64,000 nt of DNA, taken from contig JAKSZU010000008.1 in assembly GCA_026018925.1 (NCBI GenBank), positions 61,713,027-61,777,026 of the forward strand, written 5' to 3'. The first letter of the stretch is position 1, and every line of letters starts with the position of its first letter. The notes below the pieces were generated by a model. The model worked only from the letters and a program-made list of their open reading frames with translations, did no database searches and was not told where the DNA came from. The position numbers and the translations under genes are program-made. Source of the DNA: Tupaia tana (Eukaryota; Chordata; Mammalia; Scandentia; Tupaiidae). Of the stretch, positions 7,059-63,790 are shown in pieces.

Positions 7059-7107
<49 letters not shown>

Positions 7108-7199
7108 GGCATAGGTTTCAAGCTGCCAGGTCCAGGATATAAACAACAGTCGACCATGTGGGAATCCAGAATCTTAAACACTATGCCACCTGCTGGCTC
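6914..7199 (-). mobile_element. tRNA-derived SINE with expanded internal (CA)n
   Basis: Standard long-type body, but the GCACACA stretch has grown into an uninterrupted CA run at about 7,062-7,107. TSD-like CAGTCCT-TGGTTTT flanks it at about 6,900 and 7,201. Confidence 0.88.
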
Positions 7200-7221
7200 C
7201 CAGTCCTGTAGTTTTTGTTTT

Positions 7222-7226
<5 letters not shown>

Positions 7227-7266
<40 letters not shown>
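7227..7266. repeat. Poly-T tract
   Basis: About 40 uninterrupted T just right of the SINE at 6,914-7,199. It is not clearly the tail of a recognisable element. Confidence 0.8.
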
Positions 7267-7267
<1 letters not shown>

Positions 7268-7486
7268 TGTGAGGAACATGTGATCCTGTGTTCAGTCTTA
7301 TGAAAACTATGTTTGTCTTTACAATTTAAAGTAAAATTGACCAGCTAATGGCTATTAAAAAGAGATGAATAAGAATGCATAACTGGACAAAAAAGAAATG
7401 TTAGGGAGGTACAATGACCTCTCTAAAATACAACAGCAACAATAATTATGCTATAGTAATCCCATCATTGATAGATTAGTGTTTTT

Positions 7487-16991: not shown

Positions 16992-17265
16992 TTTTTTTTT
17001 TTTTTTTTTTTTGAGAGGATTTTGCTATAGGGCACGTGCGCTCGCCAGACAGACAGAGAGAGACAGAGAGACAGAAAGCGAGAAATTACCCCCAAGGGGG
17101 GATGGTCATGCCACAATCCCTTTTCCTCCATTCTCCTCTCAGAATCTTGGGCACGCACGCACACGCGCCCAGCGTGAGTTTTAACCCACCGGGTCCGGGA
17201 CACGAACCGCGGTCGACTACGTGGGAGTCCAGCGACATAGCCATTACGCTAACTGCTGGTTCCCT
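16992..17265 (-). mobile_element. tRNA-derived SINE, young long type
   Basis: It is CpG-rich and well preserved (CACGTGCGCTCGCCAGACAG; CACGAACCGCGGTCGACTAC). TSD TGCAC-GTTCTTT is at about 16,979 and 17,266. Confidence 0.92.
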
Positions 17266-34975: not shown

Positions 34976-35251
34976 TTTTCTTTCTTTTTTTTTTTTTTTT
35001 TGAAAGGTTTTCGCTATAAGGCGCATGCACTCACCAGACAGACAGAGAGAGACATGGAGACAGAAAGCGGGAAATCACCCCCCGGGGGGATGGCCACACC
35101 GCAATCCCTTCTCCTCCATTCTCCTCTCGGGATCTTGGGCACGCACGTACACGCACCCGGCGTGAGTTTTAAGCCACCGGGTCTGGGACGTGAACTGCAG
35201 TCGACTACGTGGGAGTCCAGCAACATAGCCATTATGCTAACTGCTGGTTCC
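34976..35251 (-). mobile_element. tRNA-derived SINE, young long type
   Basis: It has a perfect 17-bp TSD CCAAATTACCAATTTCT (34,959-34,975 and 35,252-35,268), a TTTC-rich tail and a full head to ACTGCTGGTTC. Confidence 0.95.
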
Positions 35252-35394
35252 CCAAATTACCAATTTCTGATCAGATGGAAATGGAAGCGAGTTATGCCAA
35301 ATACCTCAATACAGTCTTTGAGCCACCTTTGAAGCCTCTTCTTACACTGCTGCATGTCTCCCTACTTGGTGATATGTCCCTCCTGTGCAGGCAT

Positions 35395-47462: not shown

Positions 47463-47728
47463 ATTCAGATAAGAAGCATTTTAAAGCTGAGGTGTGTCCT
47501 AGCATGTTCAATGAAGCTATGCTCTAAATTCCATCTCCTAGACTCCCAAAATATTCAGATAAGGAGTCATTTTAAAACTGAGGTATGTCCTGGCATGTTC
47601 AGGGAAGATATGCTCTAAACTCCATCTCCAAGACTCCCAAAATATTCAGATAAGAAGCTGTTTTAAAGCTGAGGTGTGTCCTGGCATGTTCAGGGAAGCT
47701 ATGCTCTAAATTCCATCTCCTAGACTAG
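47463..47728 (+). repeat. Three ~90-bp monomers forming the 5' end of the HAL1-like element
   Basis: Units start with ATTCAGATAAG at 47,463, 47,553 and 47,644 (90 and 91 bp apart). They share TTTTAAA-CTGAGGT-TGTCCT, CATGTTCA and CTCCATCTC cores with several substitutions. Tandem monomers upstream of ORF1 match the arrangement of mouse L1 promoter monomers. They are unrelated in sequence to the monomers of the 50-60-kb element. Confidence 0.85.
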
Positions 47729-47874
47729 GATAAGCACAGTGGAGGATAGATATTGTCACAGAATGACCAGAAACAATTGCAGAGGCACAAGAAACATAAG
47801 AAATCAAGACAATATCTCTCCCCTAAGGGGAAAAGAGCAATCTCTCATGATCCACAGACAGTACAGTAGAACTC

Positions 47875-48768
47875 ATGGAAATGCCTGATAGAGAATTCAG
47901 AATATTCACGTGACAAGACTAAATGAGATGCAAGAACTGAGAGATAATGGACTCCAGAAGATGCAGGAGAAAAGAGAAAGAGAAAAGAGTTCCAGGAGTT
48001 GTTGAAGTTCTTCCATGATTCGAAAGAGGAAACACACACCATAAAAAAAATCAAATGGAGCTATTAGAGATGAAGGCTGCCATTCAGGAAATCAAAACCT
48101 CCCTTGAAAGTATTAAAAGCAGATTAGTCCATGCAGAAAATCGAATTTCTAATGTTGAAGGCAAAACCTCTGATCTAGAAAAAAACAAACAAAGAAAAAC
48201 TGAGAAAATAACCAAAAAAGAAAATACTATGCAAGAAAAACTAGACAGCATTAAACACCCAAAGATCTGGATAATCTGTATCCCAGAAGGTGAGGAAACC
48301 AATAAGGGCATTGATAATCTATTTCATGAAATCTTGGAAGAAAACTTTCCAAATCTATAGAGGCATTCAAATATCCAGACCCAAGAAATACCACGGACCC
48401 CTAATAGAATCAACCCAAGAAGATCTTCTCCAAGGCACATCGTAGCCAGACTGGCCAAATCTACAGATAAAGACAAGATACTAAAAATTAGCAAGAGAGA
48501 AACGTCAGTTATTTATAAAGGTTATCCAATCAGATTAACCTCAGACCTCTCATCAGAAACAATGTGAGCAAGGAAAGAATGGGAAAATATGTTCAAAGTG
48601 TTAAGTGAAAAATAGTTTCAACCAAGAATACTATACCTGGCAAGATTATCTTTTATATGGAAAGAAAGGATAATAACATTGTCAGATAAACAAAACCTGA
48701 AAGAATTTGCCAATAGCAGACCCACTCTTCATGAAGGTCTGAAAGGAGTGTTCTATCAGGAAAACTAA
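47875..48768 (+). pseudogene. Decayed L1/HAL1 ORF1 (RNA-binding coiled-coil protein)
   Basis: The stretch begins near ATG 47,875 (MEMPDREFRIF) and continues out of frame through EFQELLKFFHDSKEE. A one-base shift in an A-run near 48,050 brings in the clear coiled coil MELLEMKAAIQEIKTSLESI. The RRM follows (WIICIPEGEETNKGIDNLFHEI, about 48,260-48,355), then the C-terminal domain (TPNRINPRRSSPRH, YKGYPIRLTSDLSSE, LARLSFIWKERI). Stops at 48,358, 48,565 and 48,613 interrupt one frame that ends at TAA 48,766. L1 ORF1p is a trimeric RNA chaperone that coats the transcript. The frame is broken, so no product is expected. Confidence 0.88.
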
Positions 48769-49780
48769 AGACATATACAAAAATAAGAGAACAAAAGGCA
48801 ACTAAAAAACTGACTAATTTAATGCTACAGACAAGAAATATCAATAATAATGTTGAATGTTAACTTCTAGGATTTAAATGGAAAGACTGGACCACAGTAA
48901 CACTGCATATTCAACAGAAGAGAGTTTGAACCTAAGACTGAAATCATGAAATAGAATTTTATGACTTTTGAGTAAGACAGTCCTGATTTCTTTTTTTTTT
49001 TTTACTATGCTTCATTTTCCCAATTTAAACATTTTATTTTCTTTGGAGCTGTTGATAGGTTCAGCAATTTGTCAAAATATTTTTCTTGTTTGTTTCTTTA
49101 AATGGAAACATAAACTTTTCTTCCTTCCTGACTCCTCTTGAATTGGAAATATTTGGGAGTTTTCTTATTTTGTGGCAGAAAGGTTATGTGCATAAGTTCA
49201 ATAATGCTTGTTTCATTGAATCAGAAATGGGAAATACTCATTATTGGACAGGGAATGTCATACCTGAAAAAACAGAAATAATAATAAACATAATCAGAAA
49301 AAAGCAATAAACATAATCAGAAAAACTATGGAACTAAGGTGGATCTCAAGTAAGCCAACAGAAGCTCTTAGAAAGATGGCCTGGCACCATAAAGAGTTCT
49401 GCCTGGCAGAGAAGATTAGAGAAGATACATGAAAGAATTTGTAACATAAAATAACCTAGACTTTTCCAGCACAGCATTGTAATCAGGAGAGATTGCAAAA
49501 GAGCAACTACACCAGAGGATTATCTTGAGTAGTTGACATGTAAATATTCTCTCAAAAATATTTAAAACCATACTGCCTCTGTTGTTATAGAGTCACAAAC
49601 AAAATTACACAAAATTATAAGAAATATTTGGAACATTATCTTTAAAATTCAGTATTCTAAAATTTTGAAAGTTGTTCATTAGCTGTCAAGAACTATGTAT
49701 GAGCAAAAAATTTTTGATATGTAAAGTAAATATTTGTGAAAAAATGTAAAAAGAAAGAAAGAAAGAGAGAAAGAAAAAAA
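48769..49780 (+). other. 3' region of HAL1-like element, no ORF2
   Basis: About 1 kb of A/T-rich sequence separates the ORF1 stop from the A-rich tail. I cannot find endonuclease or reverse transcriptase motifs. A short direct repeat (AATAAACATAATCAGAAAAA) occurs twice around 49,280-49,325. Confidence 0.6.
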
Positions 49781-50378: not shown

Positions 50379-50393
50379 GGAAAAGGATTTTTT
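50379..50393. repeat. Target-site duplication, left copy, of composite element
   Basis: GGAAAAGGATTTTTT lies at the poly(A) end of the composite element and is repeated perfectly at 59,845-59,859. Its T-run merges with the poly(A) tail, so the inner boundary is uncertain by a few bases. Confidence 0.9.
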
Positions 50394-50424
50394 TTTTTTT
50401 TTTTTTTTTTCTCTTTTTTTTTTT
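50388..50424 (-). repeat. Poly(A) tail of composite element (poly-T on plus strand)
   Basis: A T-run from 50,388 to about 50,410, a CTC interruption and a second T-run precede the TATTATTATCC tail. This is the expected signature of target-primed reverse transcription for a minus-strand insertion. Confidence 0.9.
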
Positions 50425-50807
50425 TATTATTATCCATTTTTTGTTACATTGAATTACATATAACTTTACAGTGTATTACATTGCTTTTTCAAAAGGGAAT
50501 GCCATGCATGTCAGTCAGTACAGAGACATTAATCTCCCCACTTCAACATTCAATATCTTTCCTATGTATCCCCCAATCATTATTATTATTATTCTAATTA
50601 TTTTTTATGATAAACATGATTTTTTTTTTCTCCAACTATCAGATCATAAAGTTCCCAACAAGAGGGAACGTAGACTCCACTCAGGGCTGGACCAAGAGTG
50701 GGTCTCGTGCAGCCCCGCAAATGTAGGTGAATCTCCATGGAACACAGTTTCAGGAACGCGGCTCAGGGAAGCAGAGACGGCCATCAGCTGATGCAGCACG
50801 CGAGGCA
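50425..50807 (-). other. 3' tail of the composite element
   Basis: In sense orientation this begins just after the VNTR (near CAGCTGATGGCCGTCTC) and becomes A/T-rich, ending ATGGATAATAATAAAA before poly(A). It may be the 3' UTR of the L1 partner, needed for recognition by its reverse transcriptase, or a captured genomic sequence. I cannot assign it. No AATAAA hexamer is clear; ATAATAAAA is the nearest. Confidence 0.6.
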
Positions 50808-52107
50808 GACCCCGGCCACGGCTTGCAGGGTCAGAGCCCCGGCCACGGCACGCAGGGGCAGGCCCCGGCCACGGCTCGCAGGGCAGACCCCGGCCACGGC
50901 ACGCGGGGCAGACCCCGGCCACGGCTCGCAGGGTCAGAGCCCCGGCCCCGGCACGCAGGGTCAGAGCCCCGGCCACGGCACGAGGGGGCAGGCCCCGGCC
51001 ACGGCACGCGGGGCAGACCCCGGCCACGGCTCGCAGGGTCAGAGCCCCGGCCACAGCACGCAGGGGCAGGCCCCGGCCACGGCTCGCGGGGCAGACCCGG
51101 GCCACGGCACGCAGGGCAGACCCCGGCCACTGCTCGCGGGGCAGACCCCGGCCACGGCTCGCGGGGCAGACCACGGCCACGGCTCGCGGGGGCAGACCCC
51201 GGCCACGGCACGCAGTGTCAGAGCCCCGGCCACGGCACGCGGGGGCAGGCCCCGGCCACGGCACGCGGGGCAGACCCCGGCCACGGCTCGCAGGGTCAGA
51301 GCCCCGGCCACGGCACGCAGGGGCAGGCCCCGGCCACGGCTCGCGGGGCAGACCCGGGCCACGGCACGCAGGGCAGACCCTGGCCACGGCTCGCGGGGCA
51401 GACCCCGGCCACGGCACGCGGGGCTGGCCCCGGCCACGGCTCGCGGGGCAGACCACGGCCACGGCTCGCAGGGGCAGACCCCGGCCACGGCACGCAGTGT
51501 CAGAGCCCCGGCCACGGCACGCGGGGGCAGGCCCCGGCCACGGCACGCGGGGCAGGCCCCGGCCACGGCTCGCGGGGCAGGCCCCGGCCACGGCTCGCGG
51601 GGCAGACCCCGGCCACGGCACGCAGGGTCAGAGCCCCGGCCACGGCACGTGGGGGCAGGCCCCGGCCACGGCTCGCGGGGCAGACCCCGGCCACGGCACG
51701 CAGGGTCAGAGCCCCGGCCACGGCACGCAGGGTCAGAGCCCCGGCCACGGCACGAGGGGGCAGGCCCCGGCCACGGCACGCGGGGGCAGAGCCCGGGCCA
51801 CGGCACACGGGGCAGGCCCAGGCCACGGCTCGTTGGGCAGACCCCGGCCACGGCTCGCGGGGCTGGCCCCGGCCACGGCTCGCGGGGCAGACCCCGGCCA
51901 CGGCTCGCAGGGTCAGAGCCCCGGCCACGGTACGCGGGGGCAGGCCCCGGCCACGGCACGCGGGGCAGACCCCGGCCACGGCTCGCAGGGTCAGAGCCCC
52001 GGCCATGGCACGCAGGGGCAGGCCCCGGCCACGGCACGCGGGGCAGGCCCCGGCCACGGCTCGCGGGGGCAGAGCCCTGGCCACGGCACGCGGGGCAGAG
52101 CCCCAAT
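50808..52107 (-). repeat. GC-rich VNTR, about 50 units of 25-27 bp
   Basis: The plus-strand unit is CCCCGGCCACGGCACGCGGG followed by GCAGA, GCAGG or TCAGAG. Three interleaved unit types thus differ in their last bases and in CACG versus CTCG. I counted about 50 copies of the GGCCACGG core over about 1.3 kb. Longer stretches recur: 51,028 onward resembles 51,286 onward, and the rare CAGTGTCAG variant recurs at 51,213 and 51,495. This implies expansion by blocks of roughly 260-280 bp. Most units carry about four CpGs, making a dense CpG island. Frames are open on both strands only because the unit lacks stop triplets. Confidence 0.93.
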
Positions 52108-52249
52108 CGGGCCGGAACTTCAGAAGGGCACGTGGAGCGGAGCCCCCGCGCCCTGACCCCGCGCCCCAGCACGTGGAGTGGAGCCCCCGCGCCCGCCTCC
52201 CCAACCCCATGCGCCGGCACGCGGAGCGGAGCCCCCGACTGCCGCCCCT
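52108..52249 (-). repeat. GC-rich 42-48-bp repeats at the ORF1-VNTR junction
   Basis: Three related units carry the plus-strand core CACG(T/C)GGAG(C/T)GGAGCCCC near 52,130, 52,171 and 52,218. They are distinct from the 25-27-bp VNTR units next to them, and separate the VNTR from the ORF1 breakpoint at about 52,250. Confidence 0.75.
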
Positions 52250-52743
52250 GGACGTTTAATTGTATCTAGTACTTCTTGCATATTATTCTCAAAGTTTTGG
52301 GCCATTATCTCAGTCTTTATGGTGGACCTTTCTAGGCCAGCCATTTTCTCTTCTACATTAGAGATTCCATTTTCTGAATGATCTAGTCTGCTTTTAATAC
52401 TTTCAAGGAAGATTTTGACTTCTTGTATTATATCCTTCATCTCTAACAGCTCCATCTGATTCTTTTGTAAAGTGTGAAACTCCTCTTTTAGATCTTGCAT
52501 GAATTTCCTCACCTCCTAGAACTCTTCAACTCTTTTCTCCTTCCCCTTCAGCAGATCCTTGTCTCTCTTCTCTTTGCTCTCTGTTAGCTTTGCCATTATG
52601 AGTGATCTGAATTGTTTATCAGACATTTCCATGAATTCCCTTGAACTGTGTGTGGATGAAGAGGAGCTATCCGTTTCAATTGGAGGAGAGGCATTTTCCT
52701 GCTTCTCCATATTTCTTGTGGTCCTGCAGCGATTTCTGGTCAT
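52250..52743 (-). pseudogene. L1-type ORF1p 5' half, truncated and fused to VNTR
   Basis: Reading starts at the ATG at 52,741-52,743 (MTRNRCRTTRNMEKQENASP), a typical basic then Ser/Pro-rich L1 ORF1p N-terminus. A coiled coil with heptad-like leucines follows (KNQMELLEMKDIIQEV, LESIKSRLDHSENGISNVEE). Homology to L1 ORF1p stops at DTIKRP, exactly before the RRM that begins IRIIGIPEGEE in other copies, including the plus-strand element at 48.2 kb. From there the frame runs into the GC-rich segment and ends at TGA 52,120. One in-frame TAG at 52,516-52,518 splits the frame where the 47.5-kb element has a glutamine codon. No RNA-binding RRM or C-terminal domain remains. It is either non-coding or could at most encode a coiled-coil fragment. 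Confidence 0.85.
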
Positions 52744-52954
52744 CTGGTGGATGGTCGGTTTCTTCCCGAAATTTTGAAGATTAATACGAGGGTTGGGAAG
52801 TGTACAGAAAAGGAAGCAGAGAGAGGGAAACAATACCAACAACAACAAAAAACAGACAAGAAACAGAGAAAAAGAAGAGAAAAACTTTGGAATAAATCTA
52901 AAAAACAAAAATTAATATTCAAAAAATTTCAATAAAAATCAAAAATTAGAAAAC
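52744..52954 (-). other. Pyrimidine-rich leader between monomers and ORF1
   Basis: In sense orientation this is T/C-rich and runs up to the ORF1 ATG at 52,743. It contains TAATTTTTGTTTTTTAGATT, close to TAATTTTTGCTTTTTAGAAT of the 326-bp monomer core, so it may be a diverged monomer. It takes the place of the tether between monomers and ORF1 in mouse L1. The open frame running through it lacks an ORF1-like sequence until MTRNRCRTTRNM. Confidence 0.6.
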
Positions 52955-52980
52955 CGCGCGGCGCGCTAGCGCGCCGCGCG
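52955..52980. other. Perfect 26-bp CpG palindrome
   Basis: The left half reads CGCGCGGCGCGCT and the right half is its exact reverse complement, with no loop. It contains ten CpGs and sits within otherwise A/T-rich sequence. It lies exactly between the ORF1 leader and the first 326-bp monomer, which starts at 52,983. It may be a hairpin or cruciform former, a protein-binding site, or a relic of the joining event. I recognise no known element. Confidence 0.9.
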
Positions 52981-52982
52981 AA

Positions 52983-55900
52983 ATGTCTACATCTCAGGAG
53001 CCATGGAGCAGACTGTCTCTTGAAGAAGGGCTGTTCTGGGAGGAGGAGAGGGGATTATTAACAAAACAAAGGCCTAGGAGGGAGGGGCCAAAGGGCCCTG
53101 TAAGACGCCTCACCTTAAAAAATTCTAAAAAGCAAAAATTAAAAAAAAGACAGACAGACAGACAGACAGAGAGAGAGAGAGAGAGTGAGAGGTAGAGAGA
53201 GACCAAGATTGATTCAGAGACAGGAGATATGAAAGGGGTTTTCCTACCATGTGGGATTTTGTATGCTGGAGGCCCAGTTAGGAGTGGGACCTCTTCCTTC
53301 CTCCCAGCATGTCTACATCTCAGGAGCCATGGAGCAGACTGTCTCTTGAAGAAGGGCTGTTCTGGGAGGAGGAGAGGGGATTATTAACAAAACAAAGGCC
53401 TAGGAGGGAGGGGCCAAAGGGCCCTGTAAGACGCCTCACCTTAAAAAATTCTAAAAAGCAAAAATTAAAAAAAAGACAGACAGACAGACAGACAGAGAGA
53501 GAGAGAGAGAGTGAGAGGTAGAGAGAGACCAAGATTGATTCAGAGACAGGAGATATGAAAGGGGTTTTCCTACCATGTGGGATTTTGTATGCTGGAGGCC
53601 CAGTTAGGAGTGGGACCTCTTCCTTCCTCCCAGCATGTCTACATCTCAGGAGCCATGGAGCAGACTGTCTCTTGAAGAAGGGCTGTTCTGGGAGGAGGAG
53701 AGGGGATTATTAACAAAACAAAGGCCTAGGAGGGAGGGGCCAAAGGGCCCTGTAAGACGCCTCACCTTAAAAAATTCTAAAAAGCAAAAATTAAAAAAAA
53801 GACAGACAGACAGACAGACAGAGAGAGAGAGAGAGAGTGAGAGGTAGAGAGAGACCAAGATTGATTCAGAGACAGGAGATATGAAAGGGGTTTTCCTACC
53901 ATGTGGGATTTTGTATGCTGGAGGCCCAGTTAGGAGTGGGACCTCTTCCTTCCTCCCAGCATGTCTACATCTCAGGAGCCATGGAGCAGACTGTCTCTTG
54001 AAGAAGGGCTGTTCTGGGAGGAGGAGAGGGGATTATTAACAAAACAAAGGCCTAGGAGGGAGGGGCCAAAGGGCCCTGTAAGACGCCTCACCTTAAAAAA
54101 TTCTAAAAAGCAAAAATTAAAAAAAAGACAGACAGACAGACAGACAGAGAGAGAGAGAGAGAGTGAGAGGTAGAGAGAGACCAAGATTGATTCAGAGACA
54201 GGAGATATGAAAGGGGTTTTCCTACCATGTGGGATTTTGTATGCTGGAGGCCCAGTTAGGAGTGGGACCTCTTCCTTCCTCCCAGCATGTCTACATCTCA
54301 GGAGCCATGGAGCAGACTGTCTCTTGAAGAAGGGCTGTTCTGGGAGGAGGAGAGGGGATTATTAACAAAACAAAGGCCTAGGAGGGAGGGGCCAAAGGGC
54401 CCTGTAAGACGCCTCACCTTAAAAAATTCTAAAAAGCAAAAATTAAAAAAAAGACAGACAGACAGACAGACAGAGAGAGAGAGAGAGAGTGAGAGGTAGA
54501 GAGAGACCAAGATTGATTCAGAGACAGGAGATATGAAAGGGGTTTTCCTACCATGTGGGATTTTGTATGCTGGAGGCCCAGTTAGGAGTGGGACCTCTTC
54601 CTTCCTCCCAGCATGTCTACATCTCAGGAGCCATGGAGCAGACTGTCTCTTGAAGAAGGGCTGTTCTGGGAGGAGGAGAGGGGATTATTAACAAAACAAA
54701 GGCCTAGGAGGGAGGGGCCAAAGGGCCCTGTAAGACGCCTCACCTTAAAAAATTCTAAAAAGCAAAAATTAAAAAAAAGACAGACAGACAGACAGACAGA
54801 GAGAGAGAGAGAGAGTGAGAGGTAGAGAGAGACCAAGATTGATTCAGAGACAGGAGATATGAAAGGGGTTTTCCTACCATGTGGGATTTTGTATGCTGGA
54901 GGCCCAGTTAGGAGTGGGACCTCTTCCTTCCTCCCAGCATGTCTACATCTCAGGAGCCATGGAGCAGACTGTCTCTTGAAGAAGGGCTGTTCTGGGAGGA
55001 GGAGAGGGGATTATTAACAAAACAAAGGCCTAGGAGGGAGGGGCCAAAGGGCCCTGTAAGACGCCTCACCTTAAAAAATTCTAAAAAGCAAAAATTAAAA
55101 AAAAGACAGACAGACAGACAGACAGAGAGAGAGAGAGAGAGTGAGAGGTAGAGAGAGACCAAGATTGATTCAGAGACAGGAGATATGAAAGGGGTTTTCC
55201 TACCATGTGGGATTTTGTATGCTGGAGGCCCAGTTAGGAGTGGGACCTCTTCCTTCCTCCCAGCATGTCTACATCTCAGGAGCCATGGAGCAGACTGTCT
55301 CTTGAAGAAGGGCTGTTCTGGGAGGAGGAGAGGGGATTATTAACAAAACAAAGGCCTAGGAGGGAGGGGCCAAAGGGCCCTGTAAGACGCCTCACCTTAA
55401 AAAATTCTAAAAAGCAAAAATTAAAAAAAAGACAGACAGACAGACAGACAGAGAGAGAGAGAGAGAGTGAGAGGTAGAGAGAGACCAAGATTGATTCAGA
55501 GACAGGAGATATGAAAGGGGTTTTCCTACCATGTGGGATTTTGTATGCTGGAGGCCCAGTTAGGAGTGGGACCTCTTCCTTCCTCCCAGCATGTCTACAT
55601 CTCAGGAGCCATGGAGCAGACTGTCTCTTGAAGAAGGGCTGTTCTGGGAGGAGGAGAGGGGATTATTAACAAAACAAAGGCCTAGGAGGGAGGGGCCAAA
55701 GGGCCCTGTAAGACGCCTCACCTTAAAAAATTCTAAAAAGCAAAAATTAAAAAAAAGACAGACAGACAGACAGACAGAGAGAGAGAGAGAGAGTGAGAGG
55801 TAGAGAGAGACCAAGATTGATTCAGAGACAGGAGATATGAAAGGGGTTTTCCTACCATGTGGGATTTTGTATGCTGGAGGCCCAGTTAGGAGTGGGACCT

Positions 55901-57872
55901 CTTCCTTCCTCCCAGCATGTCTACATCTCAGGAGCCATGGAGCAGACTGTCTCTTGAAGAAGGGCTGTTCTGGGAGGAGGAGAGGGGATTATTAACAAAA
56001 CAAAGGCCTAGGAGGGAGGGGCCAAAGGGCCCTGTAAGACGCCTCACCTTAAAAAATTCTAAAAAGCAAAAATTAAAAAAAAGACAGACAGACAGACAGA
56101 CAGAGAGAGAGAGAGAGAGTGAGAGGTAGAGAGAGACCAAGATTGATTCAGAGACAGGAGATATGAAAGGGGTTTTCCTACCATGTGGGATTTTGTATGC
56201 TGGAGGCCCAGTTAGGAGTGGGACCTCTTCCTTCCTCCCAGCATGTCTACATCTCAGGAGCCATGGAGCAGACTGTCTCTTGAAGAAGGGCTGTTCTGGG
56301 AGGAGGAGAGGGGATTATTAACAAAACAAAGGCCTAGGAGGGAGGGGCCAAAGGGCCCTGTAAGACGCCTCACCTTAAAAAATTCTAAAAAGCAAAAATT
56401 AAAAAAAAGACAGACAGACAGACAGACAGAGAGAGAGAGAGAGAGTGAGAGGTAGAGAGAGACCAAGATTGATTCAGAGACAGGAGATATGAAAGGGGTT
56501 TTCCTACCATGTGGGATTTTGTATGCTGGAGGCCCAGTTAGGAGTGGGACCTCTTCCTTCCTCCCAGCATGTCTACATCTCAGGAGCCATGGAGCAGACT
56601 GTCTCTTGAAGAAGGGCTGTTCTGGGAGGAGGAGAGGGGATTATTAACAAAACAAAGGCCTAGGAGGGAGGGGCCAAAGGGCCCTGTAAGACGCCTCACC
56701 TTAAAAAATTCTAAAAAGCAAAAATTAAAAAAAAGACAGACAGACAGACAGACAGAGAGAGAGAGAGAGAGTGAGAGGTAGAGAGAGACCAAGATTGATT
56801 CAGAGACAGGAGATATGAAAGGGGTTTTCCTACCATGTGGGATTTTGTATGCTGGAGGCCCAGTTAGGAGTGGGACCTCTTCCTTCCTCCCAGCATGTCT
56901 ACATCTCAGGAGCCATGGAGCAGACTGTCTCTTGAAGAAGGGCTGTTCTGGGAGGAGGAGAGGGGATTATTAACAAAACAAAGGCCTAGGAGGGAGGGGC
57001 CAAAGGGCCCTGTAAGACGCCTCACCTTAAAAAATTCTAAAAAGCAAAAATTAAAAAAAAGACAGACAGACAGACAGACAGAGAGAGAGAGAGAGAGTGA
57101 GAGGTAGAGAGAGACCAAGATTGATTCAGAGACAGGAGATATGAAAGGGGTTTTCCTACCATGTGGGATTTTGTATGCTGGAGGCCCAGTTAGGAGTGGG
57201 ACCTCTTCCTTCCTCCCAGCATGTCTACATCTCAGGAGCCATGGAGCAGACTGTCTCTTGAAGAAGGGCTGTTCTGGGAGGAGGAGAGGGGATTATTAAC
57301 AAAACAAAGGCCTAGGAGGGAGGGGCCAAAGGGCCCTGTAAGACGCCTCACCTTAAAAAATTCTAAAAAGCAAAAATTAAAAAAAAGACAGACAGACAGA
57401 CAGACAGAGAGAGAGAGAGAGAGTGAGAGGTAGAGAGAGACCAAGATTGATTCAGAGACAGGAGATATGAAAGGGGTTTTCCTACCATGTGGGATTTTGT
57501 ATGCTGGAGGCCCAGTTAGGAGTGGGACCTCTTCCTTCCTCCCAGCATGTCTACATCTCAGGAGCCATGGAGCAGACTGTCTCTTGAAGAAGGGCTGTTC
57601 TGGGAGGAGGAGAGGGGATTATTAACAAAACAAAGGCCTAGGAGGGAGGGGCCAAAGGGCCCTGTAAGACGCCTCACCTTAAAAAATTCTAAAAAGCAAA
57701 AATTAAAAAAAAGACAGACAGACAGACAGACAGAGAGAGAGAGAGAGAGTGAGAGGTAGAGAGAGACCAAGATTGATTCAGAGACAGGAGATATGAAAGG
57801 GGTTTTCCTACCATGTGGGATTTTGTATGCTGGAGGCCCAGTTAGGAGTGGGACCTCTTCCTTCCTCCCAGC
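52983..57872 (-). repeat. 326-bp tandem monomer array (15 copies)
   Basis: Fifteen head-to-tail units start at 52,983 and then every 326 bp to 57,547, with no difference seen between copies. Each consists of a 54-bp left part and a 60-bp right part shared with the 114-bp monomer. These flank a 212-bp core with GACA and GA microsatellite tracts and an A-rich block. In sense orientation the core is a long pyrimidine tract ending TTTTTAG, then AAGGTGAGG, which resembles a splice donor. The position between the short array and the ORF1 leader suggests the inner part of an L1-like 5' UTR. Confidence 0.95.
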
Positions 57873-59844
57873 ATGTCTACATCTCAGGAGCCATGGAGCA
57901 GACTGTCTCTTGAAGAAGGGCTGTTCATGTGGGATTTTGTATGCTGGAGGCCCAGTTAGGAGTGGGACCTCTTCCTTCCTCCCAGCATGTCTACATCTCA
58001 GGAGCCATGGAGCAGACTGTCTCTTGAAGAAGGGCTGTTCATGTGGGATTTTGTATGCTGGAGGCCCAGTTAGGAGTGGGACCTCTTCCTTCCTCCCAGC
58101 ATGTCTACATCTCAGGAGCCATGGAGCAGACTGTCTCTTGAAGAAGGGCTGTTCATGTGGGATTTTGTATGCTGGAGGCCCAGTTAGGAGTGGGACCTCT
58201 TCCTTCCTCCCAGCATGTCTACATCTCAGGAGCCATGGAGCAGACTGTCTCTTGAAGAAGGGCTGTTCATGTGGGATTTTGTATGCTGGAGGCCCAGTTA
58301 GGAGTGGGACCTCTTCCTTCCTCCCAGCATGTCTACATCTCAGGAGCCATGGAGCAGACTGTCTCTTGAAGAAGGGCTGTTCATGTGGGATTTTGTATGC
58401 TGGAGGCCCAGTTAGGAGTGGGACCTCTTCCTTCCTCCCAGCATGTCTACATCTCAGGAGCCATGGAGCAGACTGTCTCTTGAAGAAGGGCTGTTCATGT
58501 GGGATTTTGTATGCTGGAGGCCCAGTTAGGAGTGGGACCTCTTCCTTCCTCCCAGCATGTCTACATCTCAGGAGCCATGGAGCAGACTGTCTCTTGAAGA
58601 AGGGCTGTTCATGTGGGATTTTGTATGCTGGAGGCCCAGTTAGGAGTGGGACCTCTTCCTTCCTCCCAGCATGTCTACATCTCAGGAGCCATGGAGCAGA
58701 CTGTCTCTTGAAGAAGGGCTGTTCATGTGGGATTTTGTATGCTGGAGGCCCAGTTAGGAGTGGGACCTCTTCCTTCCTCCCAGCATGTCTACATCTCAGG
58801 AGCCATGGAGCAGACTGTCTCTTGAAGAAGGGCTGTTCATGTGGGATTTTGTATGCTGGAGGCCCAGTTAGGAGTGGGACCTCTTCCTTCCTCCCAGCAT
58901 GTCTACATCTCAGGAGCCATGGAGCAGACTGTCTCTTGAAGAAGGGCTGTTCATGTGGGATTTTGTATGCTGGAGGCCCAGTTAGGAGTGGGACCTCTTC
59001 CTTCCTCCCAGCATGTCTACATCTCAGGAGCCATGGAGCAGACTGTCTCTTGAAGAAGGGCTGTTCATGTGGGATTTTGTATGCTGGAGGCCCAGTTAGG
59101 AGTGGGACCTCTTCCTTCCTCCCAGCATGTCTACATCTCAGGAGCCATGGAGCAGACTGTCTCTTGAAGAAGGGCTGTTCATGTGGGATTTTGTATGCTG
59201 GAGGCCCAGTTAGGAGTGGGACCTCTTCCTTCCTCCCAGCATGTCTACATCTCAGGAGCCATGGAGCAGACTGTCTCTTGAAGAAGGGCTGTTCATGTGG
59301 GATTTTGTATGCTGGAGGCCCAGTTAGGAGTGGGACCTCTTCCTTCCTCCCAGCATGTCTACATCTCAGGAGCCATGGAGCAGACTGTCTCTTGAAGAAG
59401 GGCTGTTCATGTGGGATTTTGTATGCTGGAGGCCCAGTTAGGAGTGGGACCTCTTCCTTCCTCCCAGCATGTCTACATCTCAGGAGCCATGGAGCAGACT
59501 GTCTCTTGAAGAAGGGCTGTTCATGTGGGATTTTGTATGCTGGAGGCCCAGTTAGGAGTGGGACCTCTTCCTTCCTCCCAGCATGTCTACATCTCAGGAG
59601 CCATGGAGCAGACTGTCTCTTGAAGAAGGGCTGTTCATGTGGGATTTTGTATGCTGGAGGCCCAGTTAGGAGTGGGACCTCTTCCTTCCTCCCAGCATGT
59701 CTACATCTCAGGAGCCATGGAGCAGACTGTCTCTTGAAGAAGGGCTGTTCATGTGGGATTTTGTATGCTGGAGGCCCAGTTAGGAGTGGGACCTCTTCCT
59801 TCCTCCCAGCATGTCTACATCTCAGGAGCCATGGAGCAGACTCA
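57873..59844 (-). repeat. 114-bp tandem monomer array (17 full copies plus a 34-bp partial)
   Basis: Units begin (plus strand) ATGTCTACATCTCAGGAGCC at 57,873 and recur every 114 bp to 59,697, with a partial copy at 59,811-59,844. Each is the 326-bp monomer minus an internal 212 bp, joined at GCTGTTC/ATGTGGG. Both translations repeat without change through all copies, so the units are essentially identical. The array is the 5' end of the composite in sense orientation, the position of promoter monomers in rodent L1 5' UTRs. The partial first unit is what transcription from inside a monomer would leave. Confidence 0.93.
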
Positions 59845-59859
59845 GGAAAAGGATTTTTT
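59845..59859. repeat. Target-site duplication, right copy, of composite element
   Basis: GGAAAAGGATTTTTT matches 50,379-50,393. The following bases are AAAATAT, so the plus strand reads TTTTTT/AAAA at the nick, matching L1 endonuclease preference. Two bases (CA, 59,843-59,844) between it and the monomer are not explained by the monomer sequence and look like untemplated 5' bases. Confidence 0.9.
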
Positions 59860-59873
59860 AAAATATAAATGGG

Positions 59874-59905
59874 GTCAGCCTGTGGCATGGTGGTTAAAGC
59901 TATTC
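59874..59905 (+). mobile_element. Fragment of tRNA-SINE head
   Basis: GGGTCAGCCTGTGGCATGGTGGTTAAAGC resembles the 5' end of the older SINE subtype but no body follows. Confidence 0.4.
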
Positions 59906-60255: not shown

Positions 60256-61015
60256 GCAGTTTGGGTTTTTGAATCATAAGAATGTAAAATCTACTCAAAA
60301 AATATTGAGTGAAATAGAAGCAAAGAAGAATCTGAATGCAATCCTGATTCACTTTCACTTATAGATGATGTCAACTTGAATGATTTCTTAATTATCCTGA
60401 GCTTGGTTTCTTTGTCTATAAAACTGGGAAAACAAACCTTATTATTTCATTTTTTTATAAAAAGGACATTTTTCTGATATTTTTTGTTAAAATGTTTTTT
60501 GAACTTTGAAATGCATGACAGGAAGACATATTATCTTTTATTTAGTTAGTTATTTATTCTGAATGACTTGCTGGCAAACCTGTATATAAAATAGGTAACA
60601 GTCTAATCAAAAAGATGGATATAGAAAACTCTAATATTCAGTTCATTATTTATACTTCTCATTCTCCTTTCATTCTTCTCAAATTGTGTTTTACCCATAA
60701 AAACTTTTTTCCCAGCATGGAAATAGAGAACAGAGACGGGGGACCAAATAATTGAACCTCTGATGATAGCCCCTCTAGATTCTCCCCTCTATGTTCCTTG
60801 TCTACTTTCTTCCTTGCCTGGTCACTAGGTGTTTCCCCCAGATAATCTCCTGCTACCACCATAGCAGCACATTCTTAATACTGTGTGCACTTTTTGCCAT
60901 CTCTCCTGTCCCCTCCTCTACCCAATCCACTTTTGTGTTCCCATTTCTGCATCTAGACTCTGAAGAAGGCAGCCTAATTAGGGACCAAGAACAAGCCACA
61001 GAAACAGCCCTTTGG

Positions 61016-61276
61016 GGACCAGCAGTTAGCGTCATGGCTATGTCACTGGACTTCCACGTAGTCGACCGCGGTTCGCGTCCCGGACCCGGTGGCTTAAACT
61101 CACGCCGGGCGCGTGTGCGTGCGTGCCCAGGATCCCGAGAGGAGAATGGAGGAGAAGGGATTGCGGCGTGGCCATCCCCCCTGGGGGGTGATTTCCTGCT
61201 TTCTGTCTCTCTGTCTCTCTCTGTCTGTCTGGCGAGCGCACGCGCCCTATAGCGAAAACCTCTCAAAAAAAAAAAA
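61016..61276 (+). mobile_element. tRNA-derived SINE, youngest-looking copy
   Basis: Head GGACCAGCAGTTAGCGTCAT, B box GGTTCGCGTCC, nearly all CpGs kept and a pure A tail. Perfect 16-bp TSD AGAAACAGCCCTTTGG (61,000-61,015 and 61,277-61,292). Confidence 0.96.
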
Positions 61277-61855
61277 AGAAACAGCCCTTTGGATTGACTT
61301 CCCATACACATCCCTTTAATAGCCAGATCTGTGGCATCTCTTGCTCCCTTTTCCCCCTTATGTCGAGTGGAAATACCCACCTGTAAGGCCTAGGCCCACC
61401 CGCAAGTCTTTTTACTGTAGCCTGAATCATGTGACTTTTCTCTTCAGGCCTTCTGCACCTCCTTCCATATGGAGCAATTTCTGTTGTTCCTCCACCCTTA
61501 TCTCTGGTTAGCAGTGAGGGGACTTGGCATCCCCACTGCATCACTCTGCTGACCCCATGGCTCCTTCCATGTGTGAGCAGGCTGATCGCCCTGCATGGGA
61601 AACCATGGCTCCCTGGTCTCATCCTACAAGTGTCACCAGCCCATGAAGTTTTGGTTAACACACCTCTGAATTCTGGTCAATTCTTCATTTAAGAAGAATG
61701 ACTCGGGCAGCTACAGACCCTGTAGACCTTCCCTGAAATAACTGCTGAGCAAAATTAAAATGCTAGAACAATACACTCCCACCTTGATTGATGAGTATCA
61801 GATTTTTCTAAAACACATGACCCCAAATTTTTCTCTAAAAATCTGCTGTAAATTG

Positions 61856-62856: not shown

Positions 62857-63121
62857 GTTTTTTTTTCTTTTTTTGGAGAGGTTTTTGCTATAGGGCGCGT
62901 GCGCTCGCCAGACAGAGAGAGACAGAGAGATAGAAAGCGAGAAATCACCCCCCAGGGGGGATGGCCACGCCGCAATCCCCTCCCCTCCATTCTCCTCCTG
63001 GGATCTTGGGCATGCACGCACACGCGCCTGGCGTGAGTTTAAGCCACCGGGTCCAGGACTCGAACCGCGGTCAACTACGTGGGAGTCCAGCGACATAGCC
63101 ATTACGCCAACTGCTGGTCCC
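62857..63121 (-). mobile_element. tRNA-derived SINE, second of two at one site
   Basis: CpG-rich young copy (GGGCGCGTGCGCTCGCCAGA). It is flanked by the same AAGAGTGTAAAGTT at 62,843 and 63,123, that is, it inserted into the TSD of its neighbour. Confidence 0.93.
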
Positions 63122-63221
63122 AAAGAGTGTAAAGTTTTAATATCCAAATTATTCAGGTTAATTTTCCAAAATAAAGGTCATTAAAACCATGAGATAAATG
63201 TATTTCTTTACTTCTTTCTTT

Positions 63222-63440: not shown

Positions 63441-63522
63441 CTGAGATAAATGTATTTCTAAACACCAGAATTTTAAAATGCATGTACTGTAGCGAAGCCT
63501 GTATTAAAACTAGGAAAAGTAT

Positions 63523-63790
63523 GGGACCAGCAGTTAGCGTAATGGCTATGTCGCTGGACTCCCATGTAGTCGACCGCGGTTCGAGTCCCGGACCCGGTGG
63601 CTTAAACTCACACCAGGCACGTGTGCATGCGTGCCCAAGATCCCGAGAGGAGAGTGGAGGAGAAGGGATTGCGGCATGGCCATCCCCCCTGGGGGGTGAT
63701 TTCCTGCTTTCTGTCTCTCTGTCTCTGTCTGTCTGGCGAGCGCACATGCCCTAAAAGCAAAAACCTCTCCAAAAAAAGAAAAAAAAAAAG
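63523..63790 (+). mobile_element. tRNA-derived SINE, young long type
   Basis: GGGACCAGCAGTTAGCGTAA head, B box GGTTCGAGTCC, A-rich tail. Perfect 16-bp TSD AAACTAGGAAAAGTAT (63,507-63,522 and 63,791-63,806). Confidence 0.96.

Follow-up and report, generated by a model that had tools for sequence, protein, structure and literature searches.

The present analysis concerns a 64,000-nucleotide stretch of the Tupaia tana genome (contig JAKSZU010000008.1, positions 61,713,027 to 61,777,026; hereafter the window) and a composite retrotransposon that it contains at positions 50,394-59,844. This element belongs to a dispersed family in which a front end derived from HAL1, a derivative of the L1 retrotransposon with open reading frame 1 (ORF1) only, is joined to a GC-rich variable number of tandem repeats (VNTR) and to an L1 3' end. 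The combined data suggest, with a probability that we put at roughly 0.85, that RNA of this family is started within tandem monomers, is spliced monomer by monomer, and is reverse-transcribed by an L1 of the same genome. Read 5' to 3' on the minus strand, the element consists of a partial exon with 114-bp units, 326-bp units, a palindrome, a leader, one half of ORF1, the VNTR, a tail and poly(A). The poly(A), tail, GC-rich VNTR, ORF1 5' half and two arrays listed in the initial annotation of this DNA were thus all found, in a single orientation.

As had been proposed in that annotation, the element is one copy of a non-autonomous, dispersed VNTR-composite family bearing L1-type insertion marks. 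When a 30-nt pattern across the ORF1-VNTR junction was searched genome-wide with up to 2 mismatches, 556 matches were obtained (68 exact rows), and the reversed control gave 0. With a 581-bp query over the same junction, the best 40 of 4,559 candidates were all 99-100% identical at full length, and the bit score of the window against itself was equalled by five other loci. With a tail-VNTR query, the best 40 of 2,496 candidate places that were scored were spread over many contigs. The 20 rows ranking next after the window in the latter search were fetched from the same genome, such fetched stretches being labelled in the manner of L009. VNTR and tail were present in all 20 loci, and the ORF1 half was complete in 13 and partial in 2; the other 5 are truncated inside the VNTR. 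The search for a second locus with both junctions therefore found ORF1 half, VNTR and tail together in 15 of 20 fetched loci, ruling out a single copy. Among 14 complete copies (the window and 13 loci), pairwise divergence over ORF1 half and tail ranged from 0.12 to 1.66%, with a median of 0.83%.

Target-site duplications (TSDs) were distinct at each locus, being detected in 15 of the 18 fetched loci tested (L010 and L017 were left out of this test) as well as in the window. They measured 12-20 bp and lay beside the poly(A); three had one mismatch, and those of L011 and L026 were A/T-rich and weaker. Each scored higher than the same upstream sequence compared with the other loci. In the window, both copies of the 15-bp TSD GGAAAAGGATTTTTT claimed earlier are present, but the left copy merges with the poly(T): six T's could belong to either, which leaves 9 unambiguous bp. 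The TTTT/AA target proposed along with it held: the minus-strand flank reads TTTT/AAAAAATCC, as L1 endonuclease predicts. Two individual copies showed further features, namely a short 5' inversion in the ORF1 half of L017 (7247-7481), resembling twin priming, and a tRNA-type short interspersed element (SINE) inserted in the last monomer of L015 (about 7086-7366), with its flank repeated.

The initial annotation had distinguished two tandem monomer arrays. Both are there, but they are not built from separate monomers; rather, one monomer occurs without or with a 212-bp GT...AG segment. What the 326-bp unit has beyond the 114-bp one is a stretch of exactly 212 bp, which on the element strand starts with GTAGGA, ends with CTCCTCCTCCCAG, and contains a pyrimidine tract. 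Within the window copy, not one letter differs among the 31 exons, nor among the 15 introns. In other copies, the donor ACATG/GT is joined to CCCAG/AACAG (here termed e) or to an acceptor 5 nt further, AACAG/CCCTT (f). The same donor is also joined to the leader at GGGAAG/AAACC, 18 nt upstream of the ORF1 start codon (L; the ATG of the window copy is at 52,743). This L join gave 10 matches genome-wide, all exact, with 0 in the control, plus a mutated one in L022, and the copies carrying it differ at ORF1 codon 2 (ATGACC, ATGACT or ATGATT).

Junctions were then counted in 19 arrays not picked for splicing, comprising the window, 13 fetched loci and 5 of the 6 loci of a second fetched set (L039, having no array, was omitted; the arrays of L010 and L042 exceed the fetched stretch). 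These arrays held 88 e, 7 f and 3 L joins, 56 unspliced units (I), and 1 odd join. Every one of the 19 contained a spliced-type junction, canonical in 18 and odd in 1. With the addition of 8 arrays that had been selected by their L join, the total came to 27 arrays and 22 patterns. Of the 15 mixed arrays, 12 had every retained intron on the 3' side; in the remaining three (L010, L041 and L042) e and I alternate instead. By shuffling, such 3'-side order had a chance of 0.05-0.5 each for most of the 12 arrays, and of ~2e-9 for the window. Moreover, L037, a HAL1 that is more distant and has an exon of its own, shows both forms of the monomer, spliced and unspliced, as judged by eye. Taken together, these data suggest that the GT-AG joins are likely to be splicing events recorded by retrotransposition, the monomers having been duplicated later.

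The 5' starts of 25 arrays were also compared (L010, L042 and L039 being left out). Exon nt 22 was the commonest 5' end in the family: 14 of them began there, and all 14 were preceded by a G where the template has C. This unmatched G fits reverse transcription of a capped RNA that starts at the A of CA, and exon nt 22 is likely to be a transcription start site. On this reading, each monomer would hold its own start site, like the monomer promoters of the mouse (PMC9022269).

The front end had previously been read as an L1 5' untranslated region (UTR) with ORF1. Instead, it is of HAL1 type, with exon, intron, leader and ORF1 half all matching HAL1 at 84-92%. A leader pattern gave 973 genome matches (41 exact, control 0), many of them not composites. 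Among the HAL1 loci found through the leader, L046 is 88% identical to the element in the exon, 84% in the intron, 88% in the leader and 92% in the ORF1 half, and continues into the C-terminal half of ORF1 with no VNTR in between. L045 has an intact 331-aa ORF1, and neither locus has a VNTR or an ORF2 frame in the fetched stretch. To judge from these matches, the HAL1 lineage of L046 and L045 is the direct parent of the composite front end. Two further loci, L037 and L038, were classed as HAL1 because each has an ORF1 (333 aa), no second frame of 100 codons on that strand, and flanking duplications, the last read by eye. In two HAL1s with intact ORF1, L038 (about 1303-1500) and L045 (about 960-1085), other, unrelated 5' sequence stands before the leader, again as read by eye, as if 5' ends had been swapped by splicing.

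The ORF1 5' half noted earlier is present, in its HAL1 version and with a stop at codon 76. The composite leaves ORF1 at DTIKRP, the border between the coiled coil and the RNA recognition motif (RRM), and then passes into the VNTR. The stop at codon 76 was found in 14 of 14 complete copies (as TAG in the window), and L016 has an extra stop at codon 47. Because this stop is common to the complete copies, full-length ORF1p is ruled out, and at most a 75-aa N-terminal peptide could be made. When the ORF1 half was compared with proteins, it was 75% identical over 132 residues to P0007, which is itself 98% identical to ORF1 copies of the host genome (the best 132 of 86,176 candidates, without internal stop and mostly with 340 open codons). 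P0007 is filed as a Streptomyces narbonensis protein (GCM10010230_68260), and is likely animal contamination in a bacterial record. Searched against Pfam and PDB, the ORF1 half returned weak coiled-coil matches only (a designed protein did as well as LINE-1 ORF1p, with its E of 0.078), so that its identity rests on the HAL1 relatives. Searches of viral and phage collections gave no match.

Complete VNTRs, examined in the window and 15 loci, were 990-2,158 bp long, with a GC content of 0.81-0.83 and 33-78 core motifs. At the other end of the element, the final 166 bp match the 3' end of L048 with 93.4% identity, up to the poly(A). L048 adjoins an open frame of 1,343 codons; this frame matches PF00078, a reverse-transcriptase profile, and we assign it to L1 by its ORF2 C-terminus. 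Among the best 150 of 24,721 candidates for long ORF2 frames, counted by eye, 1,343 codons were found in 14 rows, 1,322 in 6, and 1,290 in more than 30; by their sequences, at least two L1 families, with ORF2 frames of 1,290 and 1,322/1,343 codons, look intact in this genome. As a source of the tail, L047 (an L1 with the 1,290-codon frame) gave no match, nor did the 3' ends of the HAL1 loci L037, L038, L045 and L046. The ~180 bp between the VNTR and the L1 tail had no match in these four HAL1 loci or in the L1 3' ends L047 and L048.

The pairing of ORF1 with ORF2 that marks an L1 was not seen in the element, as judged from frames and motifs and not from a reverse-transcriptase profile: the long frames inside it traverse repeat arrays, and a scan for two long motifs of L1 ORF2 found neither there, nor in all 344 kb of fetched DNA, window included. 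Frames of 776 and 691 codons cross the array of spliced-form units on both strands (57558-59888 on the minus strand, 57793-59868 on the plus strand), with no sign of translation. They run through this array because 114 bp equal 38 codons. From its sequence, the element appears to be effectively non-coding.

These observations can be accommodated in the following mechanism. RNA polymerase II would initiate within a monomer, at exon nt 22, and the spliceosome would take the 212-nt intron out of some monomers, or the last donor would skip ahead to the acceptor that lies in the leader, close upstream of the ORF1 ATG. Proteins of the L1 with the 1,343-codon ORF2 frame would then take the polyadenylated RNA and supply reverse transcriptase, and insertion would proceed by target-primed reverse transcription (at TTTT/AA in the window). 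Finally, the arrays would lengthen again by monomer duplication, mainly at the DNA level, so that splice-shortened copies would not be dead.

Several points weigh against this proposal. The match between element and L1 is limited to the last 166 bp, and because nothing else links the two, the choice of driver is weaker than the mechanism as a whole: we somewhat favour the L1 carrying the 1,343-codon frame, acting by trans-mobilisation. Eleven of the 25 arrays begin elsewhere than at exon nt 22; some of these are plain 5' truncations, and the start of L035 was not resolved. In L044, the join ...ACATG/GAAGAAACC has no AG acceptor in the sequence as read. Three of the 18 loci tested (L009, L012 and L014) had no clear TSD. 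Moreover, the identity of the window arrays and the alternation of e and I in L010, L041 and L042 would need duplication at the DNA level (or at the level of reverse transcription) besides splicing; part of the junction pattern may be inherited and not newly spliced; and polishing of the assembly could have lent the arrays some of their uniformity.

Among the alternatives, the one that survives best is that mobilisation relies mainly on HAL1 ORF1p together with the reverse transcriptase of any L1, the L1-like 3' end being a passive relic. HAL1s with intact ORF1 are abundant (the best 132 of 86,176 candidates) and the front ends are related, but the 3' end of the element belongs to an L1 with long open ORF2 frames and not to HAL1; we regard this alternative as unlikely, although it deserves to be kept in mind. 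It is considerably less likely that the long arrays of the window are in part an artefact of assembly (collapse, expansion or polishing). The fifteen 326-bp units do lack a single difference, even in their microsatellite tract; however, units and microsatellite lengths differ in other copies (L011, L016), the VNTR of the window copy keeps its variants, and the family, its parts and the GT-AG joins would be unaffected by such an artefact. Somewhat less probable again is the proposal that a single 212-bp DNA deletion in one monomer gave rise to the 114-bp units, which spread by unequal exchange without any splicing. The perfect uniformity of the window arrays and the alternating eI blocks of some copies do point to amplification at the DNA level, but the missing piece is precisely GT...AG, and its donor also joins two more AG acceptors, one of them elsewhere in the element. 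Furthermore, the e/I pair recurs in a more distant HAL1 with another exon, and the leader join in copies distinguished by their second ORF1 codon. Lastly, although its parts derive from HAL1 and L1, an ordinary HAL1 or L1 that was rearranged once by chance and expanded in the manner of a satellite at this locus alone is refuted by TSDs that differ between loci and by the recurrence of the junction, seen 556 times against 0 for the reversed pattern, which excludes a chance origin of the composite.

The features of the window copy and their coordinates are given in Table 1.

Table 1. Parts of the composite element and neighbouring features in the window
Feature	Position	Strand	Remarks
Whole composite retrotransposon	50394..59844	-	5' end at 59,844, 3' end at 50,394
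TSD, element's 5' side	59845..59859		GGAAAAGGATTTTTT
TSD, element's 3' side	50379..50393		GGAAAAGGATTTTTT; final six T's run into poly(T)
Array of 114-bp units (spliced-form monomers)	57812..59842	-	17 exon-exon junctions; begins at exon nt 22
Array of 326-bp units	52983..57926	-	114-bp exon + 212-bp GT-AG segment; 15 retained, all identical
Perfect palindrome, 26 bp, CGCGCGGCGCGCTAGCGCGCCGCGCG	52955..52980		array/leader border; partly absent from some other copies
Pyrimidine-rich leader	52744..52954	-	AG acceptor at 52,762-52,763, joined to monomer donor in fully spliced copies
HAL1 ORF1 N-terminal half (coiled coil)	52249..52743	-	stops at DTIKRP ahead of RRM; TAG at codon 76 (52,516-52,518)
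GC-rich VNTR	50794..52248	-	~25-bp unit, about 50 units (50.7 copies) in window copy
Tail segment, origin unassigned	50611..50793	-	matches neither HAL1 loci nor L1 3' ends compared
3' end from L1 3' UTR	50445..50610	-	166 bp, 93.4% identical to L048
AATAAA-type A-rich end and poly(A)	50394..50444	-	appears as poly(T) on plus strand
Decayed old HAL1/L1 ORF1 relic, outside element	47763..48780	+	71% to element's ORF1 half

The palindrome was whole, half or missing depending on the copy (window; L011, L016, L040 and L042), as if reverse transcriptase had skipped a hairpin. The old ORF1 relic, only 2 kb from the insertion, retains N-terminal half, RRM and C-terminal parts, and is adjoined by a tandem repeat (47463-47726; 91 bp, 2.9 copies). 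Also, a tRNA-like SINE of ~270 bp is abundant in the window (16996-17264, 34985-35256, 61014-61281, 62858-63122 and 63522-63787), its copies being roughly 86-92% alike. Rfam and tRNA scans of the window gave no match.

TSDs and a poly(A) are features of SVA, and the element has both. The VNTR composites SVA, LAVA, PVA and FVA have been described as hominoid-specific (PMC4432496; PMC7353768). Like them, the present element is non-autonomous, has a central GC-rich VNTR of variable length, and combines parts from different elements (PMC4432496); LAVA is moreover named for an L1-derived part. However, in place of the CT-hexamer/Alu-like 5' part of SVA and LAVA, this element has HAL1 monomers, leader and ORF1 half, as judged from the HAL1 match of 84-92% and not from an Alu alignment. 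Its VNTR unit is ~25 bp, compared with 30-50 bp in the hominoid composites (PMC4432496), and its monomers bear introns. By its parts, then, the element is one that works like SVA and LAVA without being a member, its 5' end being of another kind. A second, convergent invention of the SVA design is probable, and rests on the unrelated parts. In SVA_F1/MAST2 and in the chimpanzee STK40-SVA, too, a VNTR composite owes the form of its 5' end to splicing, but these splice on a host-gene exon (PMC6139936), whereas the present element splices its own monomers. In titles and abstract openings of the open-licence literature, neither a VNTR composite from beyond the hominoids nor an intron-bearing monomer was found; a word search in PMC13174262, on L1 chimeras, did not find HAL1.

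HAL1 ("half-L1"; PMC5753468; PMC5322556) has been reported to encode ORF1p only and to have arisen several times (PMC5753468). The element has exon, intron, leader and ORF1 N-terminal half in common with the HAL1 lineage of its own genome, its 5' UTR and ORF1 sequence being shared with L046 and L045, and with P0007. In contrast to HAL1, with its complete ORF1p and no ORF2, it has an ORF1 that breaks off where the coiled coil meets the RRM and contains a stop at codon 76, and it has gained a VNTR and an L1 3' end.

In human SpIREs (spliced integrated L1s), one donor is used with several acceptors; they make up ~2% of full-length L1s and have been called dead ends (PMC5860796). The present joins are alike in their single GT donor, their several AG acceptors and their fixation in the genome by retrotransposition, with otherwise normal insertion hallmarks and L044 as the exception. 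They differ in that spliced-type junctions occur here in all 19 unselected arrays, and in that the repeated monomers may keep promoters. Mouse Gf_I L1 has tandem monomers, a truncated monomer and a tether ahead of ORF1 (PMC9022269), a layout matched here by tandem monomers, a partial monomer and a non-repeated leader, with a putative promoter role. For mouse Tf_I L1, cryptic splice sites were predicted in the monomers of one element and may account for 22 genomic copies (PMC9022269); here, by comparison, every unspliced monomer carries a complete intron.

Whether the family lives by a cycle of splicing and regrowth seems to us evenly balanced. In such a cycle, each promoter monomer would carry its own spliceosomal intron, splicing would be routine and perhaps required (in line with the spliced-type junctions of all 19 unselected arrays and the 3'-side introns of 12 among 15 mixed ones), and duplication would restore the monomers, the SVA design having been re-invented from HAL1 and L1 parts. 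If this is true, splicing, a dead end for human L1, would turn harmless or even useful. The intron-bearing monomer also bears on a puzzle of human L1, namely why harmful splice sites persist (PMC5860796). Moreover, a second VNTR composite assembled from other parts would make the combination of an L1-derived front, a GC-rich VNTR and an L1-compatible 3' end a repeatable recipe, and lets the purpose of the VNTR be asked. Finally, each copy would record which of its monomers were spliced, so that splicing, the choice of start site and monomer regrowth may be read from the genome.

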